DNA of 64,000 nucleotides, taken from NCBI GenBank assembly GCA_029246105.1, contig JAQWOA010000004.1, positions 1 through 64,000 on the forward strand. The letters run 5' to 3'. Source of the stretch: Woeseiaceae bacterium. GTDB taxonomy: Bacteria; Pseudomonadota; Gammaproteobacteria; Steroidobacterales; Woeseiaceae. How positions within the stretch are numbered: position 1 is the first letter of the stretch; every line of letters starts with the position of its first letter. A program made the translations under genes and the position numbers. This document shows, piece by piece, positions 1-1,608 of this stretch. A model generated the notes under the pieces. The model had not been told where the DNA came from. It did not search any database and saw only the letters and a list, made by a program, of their open reading frames with translations.

Positions 1-781
1 ACTCATCACGAAGACGCGCATTTTCTTCGAGCGTGCGACGCAACTCTCTTTCGGCTCTTCGTCGCTCTGTTACATCCTTTGAGGCAACAAGCATACGATC
101 GACATTACCATCTTTATCACGGTGGGATATTGCAGACATTACCAAATCGAGAACGGCACCATCTTTCGAAATCATTTGACGTTCAAGATTATTGAAATCA
201 CCATCACGGATCAGTTCACGTAAACGACCATCTGCATAATATTCACTGTCTCGAGAAGAAAAAAAATCAGTTATTGAGCGCCCAACAACTTCTTCCCTAT
301 TAAAGCCTAGCTTCTGTAGCCAGTGATCAGTCACCGTTACAATAAGACCTTCTCCGTCGACCGTATGTAACATCGCTGGTGTCGCACGATAAAGTGTTCG
401 ATACTTAAAATTTGCTCGAGCTTGATCAGAAATTTCAGCATACATCGCAACTGTTCGAAGATATTCTCCCTTCTGATCGAGCTCAATAATGGCGTTAGAC
501 ATACAGTCAACAACATCGCCGGACTTAGTAACAAAACTGATTGGCTTATTTTCCAATTTCCCGGTGCGACGCAAGGCAGGTTTTAGTTCATCTCGTATGC
601 GAGCTGCGCTTTCATGAGTTGAAAAATCTTCGGGGCTGCGGCCAACCATCTCTTCACGCTCATAACCCAGCCGCTCTAGCATCGCGTCATTAACATCCAA
701 GTACACACCATCTTCTGCAATCGAAGTCGCCATCATTGGTGACTTGCGAAACAACCATTGGTAATCGTCTTGAGAAATCAT
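1..781 (-). CDS. PAS-domain regulator/sensor protein, two PAS domains then a coiled coil (partial, runs off left edge)
   Basis: Open minus-strand frame from ATG at 781 to the edge: MISQDDYQWLFRKSPMMATSIAEDGVYLDVNDAMLERLGYEREEMVGRSPEDF...VVGRSITDFF...DVTERRRAERELRRTLEENARLRDE; two PAS-like repeats plus coiled coil. Confidence 0.8.
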   Translation of the reverse strand, partial: MISQDDYQWLFRKSPMMATSIAEDGVYLDVNDAMLERLGYEREEMVGRSPEDFSTHESAARIRDELKPALRRTGKLENKPISFVTKSGDVVDCMSNAIIELDQKGEYLRTVAMYAEISDQARANFKYRTLYRATPAMLHTVDGEGLIVTVTDHWLQKLGFNREEVVGRSITDFFSSRDSEYYADGRLRELIRDGDFNNLERQMISKDGAVLDLVMSAISHRDKDGNVDRMLVASKDVTERRRAERELRRTLEENARLRDE

Positions 782-836
782 CGTCTCATTATATATGACT
801 TTTCGTTAAAAAATCACGGTTTATCGTTAAAAATAA

Positions 837-867
837 TACGGAAAAGCGTAAATTACGATATTCCGTA
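837..867. promoter_or_regulatory. 31-bp nested dyad TACGGAA-N3-CGTAA-A-TTACG-N3-TTCCGTA, candidate upstream activator site
   Basis: Perfect symmetry of both arm pairs about position 852; lies 64 bp upstream of a sigma-54-like -24 element. Confidence 0.55.
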
Positions 868-914: not shown

Positions 915-930
915 TGGCACGACTTATGCA
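915..930 (+). promoter_or_regulatory. Putative sigma-54 (RpoN) promoter TGGCAC-N5-ATGCA
   Basis: TGGCACgacttATGCA; GG (916-917)-N10-GC (928-929) spacing matches -24/-12 consensus TGGCAC-N5-TTGCW with one mismatch. Confidence 0.6.
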
Positions 931-1003: not shown

Positions 1004-1141
1004 ATGAAAATTGAATATTTTGAAAACGGGCTCGCCCTTTTGGCCGCATTGATCATTCTTATCGGCGTATCAGCTGCTGCTGAAATAGCGCTGAATGGAG
1101 ATCTTGGCACAATTAAAACTTACAACGCTGCTCAAAGATAG
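1004..1141 (+). CDS. Small hydrophobic protein, 45 aa
   Basis: ATG..TAG: MKIEYFENGLALLAALIILIGVSAAAEIALNGDLGTIKTYNAAQR; AGGA-like RBS upstream; downstream of the sigma-54-like promoter; absent from the supplied track (below its length cutoff). Confidence 0.55.
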   Translation: MKIEYFENGLALLAALIILIGVSAAAEIALNGDLGTIKTYNAAQR

Positions 1142-1160: not shown

Positions 1161-1311
1161 GGGGCCCGACGCCAGATCCCCCCTTATCTTTTGGCTCTGG
1201 GCCCCGAATCTCACCGAATGAAATTCGGTGAACAAACGGACCAAGTTGGTCCGACACGGCACCCCCCTGCCGTTCTTTGAACGCCGAAGATTATTCTTCG
1301 GCGTTTTTTTT
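1161..1311 (+). ncRNA. Putative structured sRNA or 3'UTR RNA: five consecutive hairpins, two with C6 loops, ending in an intrinsic terminator
   Basis: Stems GGGGCCC(1161-1167)/GGGCCCC(1199-1205) with inner GCCAGA/TTTGGC; CACCGAAT(1212-1219)/ATTCGGTG(1223-1230); CGGACC(1237-1242)/GGTCCG(1248-1253); CGGCA(1257-1261)-CCCCCC-TGCCG(1268-1272); terminator stem 1281-1304. Confidence 0.6.
1281..1311 (+). terminator. Rho-independent terminator
   Basis: ACGCCGAAGA-TTAT-TCTTCGGCGT followed by a T tract. Confidence 0.9.
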
Positions 1312-1452: not shown

Positions 1453-1608
1453 TCAATCGTCCTCATCGCTTTTCCATTTCTTCAGTTTTTTCTTATCAAC
1501 CTTTTTCCACTGACGATCGCTTTGTCGCATATAAGAGATCACTTTTATGATTGTGTATAGAACTACAAAAGCAATAAAGATTAATAGATACTTCAGGCCA
1601 TCGGACAT
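1453..1608 (-). CDS. Small membrane protein, 51 aa, with charged C-terminus
   Basis: MSDGLKYLLIFIAFVVLYTIIKVISYMRQSDRQWKKVDKKKLKKWKSDEDD: one TM segment plus a basic tail; not in the supplied track. Confidence 0.5.
   Translation of the reverse strand: MSDGLKYLLIFIAFVVLYTIIKVISYMRQSDRQWKKVDKKKLKKWKSDEDD

Follow-up and report, generated by a model that had tools for sequence, protein, structure and literature searches.

Results

A conserved hairpin RNA with nearly invariant C-rich loops

We analyzed a 64,000-nucleotide (nt) stretch of DNA from a Woeseiaceae bacterium (assembly GCA_029246105.1, contig JAQWOA010000004.1, positions 1 to 64,000; hereafter the window) and found at 1160-1306 an RNA of five hairpins that is real, new and conserved, and that forms part of a well-defined module. 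By computation, a stable fold with nearly invariant C loops is linked to a sigma-54 promoter, a set of palindromes and a small open reading frame (ORF), and a regulator gene is encoded divergently from them.

When 1155-1320 was folded and compared with 200 dinucleotide shuffles, the fold energy was -78.1 kcal/mol as against -40.5 ± 3.9 for the shuffled sequences (z = -9.7), and 0/200 shuffles equaled it. The minimum-energy fold of 1160-1306, on the forward strand, consists of five consecutive hairpins, the last of which is the terminator. Hairpin 1 (1160-1206) has an outer helix of 8 base pairs (bp), an inner helix of 8 bp and a C-rich loop; hairpin 2 (1211-1231) has 9 bp and hairpin 3 (1237-1253; CGGACC..GGTCCG) has 7 bp; hairpin 4 (1256-1273) has a nearly invariant stem of 6 bp and a second C-rich loop; and the intrinsic terminator (1279-1306) has a 12-bp stem followed by a U-run tail. 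An earlier note on this DNA, made from the letters and a list of ORFs, had described five back-to-back hairpins, and its architecture and coordinates were borne out, with each of its stems drawn 1-2 bp too short. The two C6 runs that it had placed at 1178-1183 (hairpin 1) and 1262-1267 (hairpin 4) lie at exactly those positions, both unpaired and in loops.

Hairpins 1-3 are supported by covariation as well as by the fold. Among 70 aligned copies (median identity 62%), standard pairs filled 92.2% of cells, both-sided changes occurred in 25 of 33 pairs, double-change cells numbered 356 against 96.9 ± 9.5 in shuffles, and the covariation score was 0.451 against 0.161 shuffled, a value reached by 0/500 shuffles, these figures being somewhat inflated because the alignment was fitted to the model. 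Sliding the structures by 1-3 columns brought the score to 0.09 or less. An alignment of nine sequences made with MAFFT, and not fitted to the model, gave the same sign, with 9 double-change pairs against 2.9 (0/500). Variation was greatest in hairpin 1 with its inner helix and in hairpin 2, and hairpin 4 was almost frozen. A run of at least five Cs was present in the hairpin 1 loop of 67/70 copies (9 with shuffled loop letters), usually preceded by UCUCU, and in the hairpin 4 loop of 65/70 (14 with shuffled loop letters); no copy had a C-run in the loop of hairpin 2 or 3. The earlier note had named compensatory stem changes around invariant C loops as the pattern to look for, and this is what the 70 sequences displayed, with loops that are nearly fixed. 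Exposed, conserved C-runs in hairpin loops, the trait of the C-rich-loop small RNA (sRNA) class, are thus present here.

Distribution of the RNA

A DNA search returned eight relatives within the same genus, which have the architecture in common and differ in stem sequence. Covariance model R1 matched 66 of the 73 genomes of the genus and, when run over 397 genomes of the order, added two Woeseiaceae genomes and one genome of another family; a second model, R2, matched 80 of 107 Woeseiaceae genomes, in 8 of 12 genera. Matched genomes nearly always held a single copy. The 369 genomes sampled over the class gave no match outside the window's own genus, and in the genomes searched the RNA occurs only in Woeseiaceae and in a second family of that order. 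A DNA-pattern search of named genomes yielded 30 true members, and the named records behind such matches are Woeseiaceae or less precisely labeled Gammaproteobacteria or Proteobacteria. Pattern matches in Streptomyces, Ectothiorhodospira, Methylothermaceae and others, with scores under 24 bits or none, were rejected; seven of these non-members were inspected and look like chance.

No Rfam family reached its gathering score in the window; a scan of 880-1330 relaxed to E = 10 did not return 6C, and 12 related loci scanned to E = 0.1 gave no family. Woeseiaceae are abundant marine gammaproteobacteria, and our literature search turned up no sRNA of Woeseiales or Woeseiaceae. In marine sediment surveys, Woeseiales make up 1-22% of 16S sequences (PMC7082342).

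A sigma-54 promoter, three palindromes and a divergent activator

Ahead of the RNA, at 915..930 on the forward strand, lies a sigma-54 (-24/-12) promoter, TGGCACGACTTATGCA, which the earlier note had called sigma-54-like. The pattern TGGCA(C/T)(G/A)N5TGCA occurred in 68/68 loci, 97-100 nt after the first palindrome, with TGGCA..TGCA and its GG/GC core invariant, and all traits of such a promoter are present: the GG-N10-GC core, rpoN in the genome and an adjacent enhancer-binding protein. Transcription would be expected to start near 941. Three putative activator sites with the palindrome ACG-N6-CGT precede the promoter: site 1 (ACGGTTTATCGT, 816..827) 99 bp upstream at a conserved position, site 2 (ACGGAAAAGCGT, 838..849) 77 bp upstream and site 3 (ACGATATTCCGT, 855..866) 60 bp upstream. 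We counted 202 of these palindromes in 69 loci against 6.8 expected; the three lie constantly spaced between the two genes.

The regulator gene is represented in the window by its N-terminal part, with two PAS domains (Pfam), at 2..781 on the reverse strand, where the contig ends. Full-length relatives of about 600 amino acids (aa) are enhancer-binding proteins of the form PAS-PAS-Sigma54_activat-HTH_8 (Pfam); two full-length relatives were scanned, and in one of them the HTH_8 match stayed under the Pfam cut-off. None of the NCBIfam matches listed attained an equivalog cut-off. The regulator is divergent from the RNA in 69 of 70 RNA loci, and in the remaining one the contig ends 13 nt away.

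TGGCAYRN5TGCA occurs 5, 5, 5 and 16 times in four genomes. We read 30 such sites with their surroundings, and palindromes at -99, -77 and -60 accompanied the RNA locus only, at one site per genome. Because the promoter with three palindromes occurs once in each of the four genomes, the activator looks, from the sequence, dedicated to the promoter of the RNA locus. A separate sigma-70 promoter for the RNA was also sought, and none was found between ORF and RNA in the window. In relative L010, which also has the sigma-54 promoter, one TTGACA-17-TATACT-like sequence was noticed by eye ahead of the RNA.

The activator and the RNA co-occur across the family. The activator was present in 93 of 107 family genomes, among them all 80 that were RNA-positive, and none of the 14 genomes that lack it had the RNA. 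In the remaining 13, which have the activator and are model-negative, the locus, where fully shown, carries the promoter, two or three palindromes and then C-rich hairpins; one of these loci (L184), shown in part only, has the promoter and palindromes. Hairpins 2 and 3 are often missing from these 13 diverged loci. One of the 13 (L176, genome G150) encodes a secreted-type small protein behind the same promoter, followed by at least three separate hairpins whose loops hold C8, C8 and C6. When exposed runs of four or more Cs were counted from folds in 94 loci, every locus had at least one and 84 had two or more, a generous count because it covered 760 nt. Both rpoN and hfq were present in 7/7 module-positive genomes tested. 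Three small genomes of the sister genus g24 (G162, G228 and G257), which is without the module, gave no match for rpoN, hfq, activator or RNA; the window's own genome, small too (1.35 Mb assembled), has kept all four.

A small protein encoded upstream of the RNA

A 45-aa small membrane or secreted protein is predicted at 1004..1141 on the forward strand. Fifteen equal-length copies gave a nonsynonymous rate (dN) of 0.24 and a synonymous rate (dS) of 1.27 (dN/dS about 0.19), with third-position changes dominating, and by this substitution pattern the ORF that the earlier note had seen ahead of the RNA is real, coding and under purifying selection. Its relatives range from about 30 to 98 aa and have a hydrophobic N-terminus in common. 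The ORF lies upstream of the RNA in most loci, and the context of a small-protein mRNA, like the sigma-54 promoter, is conserved family-wide. The 45-aa protein matched no Pfam or NCBIfam family.

Discussion

A probable circuit and its competitors

We think it probable that one sigma-54 transcript, under a dedicated activator, yields both a small protein and a trans-acting C-loop RNA that blocks G-rich ribosome-binding sites. The divergently encoded PAS-type enhancer-binding protein, in response to a signal that its PAS domains may sense, would bind the three palindromes and drive the sigma-54 promoter, giving a single transcript of about 370 nt (roughly 941-1310) that would encode the small membrane or secreted protein and end in the C-rich-loop regulatory RNA. 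This RNA might act while still joined to the mRNA or once cleaved from it. Hairpins 1 and 4 would use their C5-6 loops to pair in trans with G-rich stretches in or close to ribosome-binding sites and so block translation, with Hfq probably assisting at the U-rich terminator. Action in trans is the reading that fits best, because the RNA ends in a terminator, because downstream genes differ between relatives, and because the loops are nearly invariant on changing stems.

Two points weigh against this circuit: in some members a single C loop is clear, and our search for G-runs before ATG established no single conserved target. A point in its favor is that in three genomes A-G5 stood 2-14 nt before ATG more often than the backward pattern did (39/14, 36/18 and 51/14), but ordinary Shine-Dalgarno preference would give such an excess too. 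The genes found in this way are leads only, since G-rich ribosome-binding sites are expected anyway; the candidates, named by eye from translations and none of them established, are class II ribonucleotide reductase, ihfA, the PII protein, rplV, a TonB receptor and a dicarboxylate symporter. A-G5/6 stands just ahead of the start codon of class II ribonucleotide reductase in L217 (G000:C2) and L215 (G004:C6), and of ihfA in L213 (G011:C20) and at G004:C25:14739-14760, two species for each gene and all possible targets.

The RNA might instead be a protein sponge of the Csr/Rsm type, in which the loops of hairpins 2 and 3 titrate CsrA, leaving the C loops a secondary role. The hallmark of CsrA sites is GGA within a hairpin loop (PMC7652899), and GGA occurred far more often than with shuffling, in the hairpin 2 loop of 54/70 copies (13.8 shuffled) and the hairpin 3 loop of 48/70 (10.8 shuffled), with at least one such loop in 61/70. 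Hairpin 3, which reads ACCAGGAUGG in some members, resembles the CsrA consensus RUACARGGAUGU from systematic evolution of ligands by exponential enrichment, and McaS shows that a base-pairing RNA can antagonize CsrA as well (both PMC7652899). We found csrA in 13 of 15 genomes tested, the window's own included, yet the window copy has GGA in neither loop and so lacks the several GGA hairpin loops of Csr/Rsm sponges; 9/70 members have none, two GGA sites are few for a sponge, and diverged members have lost hairpins 2 and 3 or carry other loops there while retaining the C loops. With the window copy and diverged members lacking GGA loops, we demoted titration of CsrA as the main function and regard it as unlikely. 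We entertain more readily, though still tentatively, a combined, family-wide scheme in which one enhancer-binding protein serves a lone sigma-54 promoter and the single transcript delivers as many as three products, namely a small envelope protein, C loops directed against Shine-Dalgarno sequences and, in most species, GGA loops to which CsrA binds; it would join RpoN, Hfq and CsrA, and the CsrA arm would have been lost in the window's streamlined lineage.

It is also improbable, in our estimation, that the hairpins merely form a stabilizing 3′ untranslated region (UTR) and terminator of an mRNA whose protein is the effector. The purifying selection on a protein encoded just upstream in most loci would suit such a role, as would the lack of a separate promoter between ORF and RNA, but a stabilizer would have no need to keep C5-6 loops nearly invariant on freely changing stems, several C-loop hairpins recur in diverged loci, and the C loops persist while protein length varies about threefold. 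That the C loops act elsewhere than at ribosome-binding sites, either on another RNA, by sponging a G-rich sRNA, or through intramolecular kissing of the GGA loops with the UCC of hairpin 1, seems to us very improbable: GGA and UCUCC are complementary within the same RNA and no conserved mRNA target was identified, but copies without GGA loops, the window's among them, keep their C loops.

Comparison with known sRNAs

C-loop chemistry is already known from unrelated sRNAs, and exposed C loops do the work in sX13 (PMC3771888) and B11 (PMC10470900), which speaks for the proposed circuit. Excerpts of the description of sX13 from Xanthomonas report that its stable hairpins expose C4-C5 at their tips and repress mRNAs in which G-rich motifs lie close to the start codon (PMC3771888). 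Like the RNA described here, sX13 has several C-loop hairpins, and it is confined to one gammaproteobacterial family, as the present RNA nearly is; sX13 differs in that it is 115 nt long, follows polA and is reported to be Hfq-independent, and the excerpts mention neither a small ORF nor a dedicated activator nor a sigma-54 promoter (PMC3771888). With sX13 confined to Xanthomonadaceae, and the present RNA in Woeseiaceae and one other family with no Rfam match, the latter is not an sX13 member. B11 (6C RNA) of Actinobacteria represses an mRNA with a six-G leader, and either of its C-rich loops suffices (PMC10470900). It too has two C-rich loops; it differs in phylum, architecture and promoter, and no 6C covariance-model match was found.

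The CcsR RNAs of Rhodobacter, to which the earlier note had likened this RNA while judging it apparently unrelated in sequence, reportedly have C-rich loops and are cut by RNase E from a 3′ UTR. They share its position in a 3′ UTR (PMC8625941). The likeness is an apt analogy and does not amount to membership: there was no Rfam match, CcsR comprises four units whereas the hairpins here are five and unlike, and CcaF1 (of CcaF1-CcsR1-4) is a DUF1127 RNA-binding protein whereas the protein here is a hydrophobic membrane or secreted peptide with no Pfam match. McaS and the Csr/Rsm sRNAs have GGA in hairpin loops, as do most relatives of the window copy, from which they differ by its want of GGA loops and of an Rfam match and by the C loops being the constant part. 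Qrr and GlmY, among others, are sRNAs under sigma-54 and an enhancer-binding protein. By comparison, the activator here is adjacent and of the PAS type, it has apparently a single target promoter, and the transcript also encodes a protein.

Our literature search found no system that joins C loops to a sigma-54 promoter with its own dedicated PAS activator, to a small protein and, as in most species here, to GGA loops. The module offers a near-universal Woeseiales sRNA with strong covariation support and a defined switch. It is also a further, independent example of C-rich loops, one in which they go with a sigma factor and a small protein, and it suggests that silencing of G-rich leaders by such loops arose repeatedly. 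The proposed circuit is directly testable, and the lineage has a complete single-contig genome (G133).

Neighboring features

Convergent with the RNA, a 51-aa hydrophobic protein beginning MSDGLKYLLIFIAF is encoded at window positions 1453-1608 on the reverse strand; it has no Pfam match and is kept in the two closest relatives (L003 and L004). In L010 (1541-1625), as in many relatives, the RNA is followed by a terminator that is long and branched and contains a conserved GGCGCCGGAGACCGCTCCGTGTCGGA-like segment, in place of the simple terminator of the window copy. Another sigma-54-like promoter, TGGCACAACAACTGCA, which is without palindromes, is identical in three species (L277, G000:C46; L270, G004:C6; L276, G011:C54).
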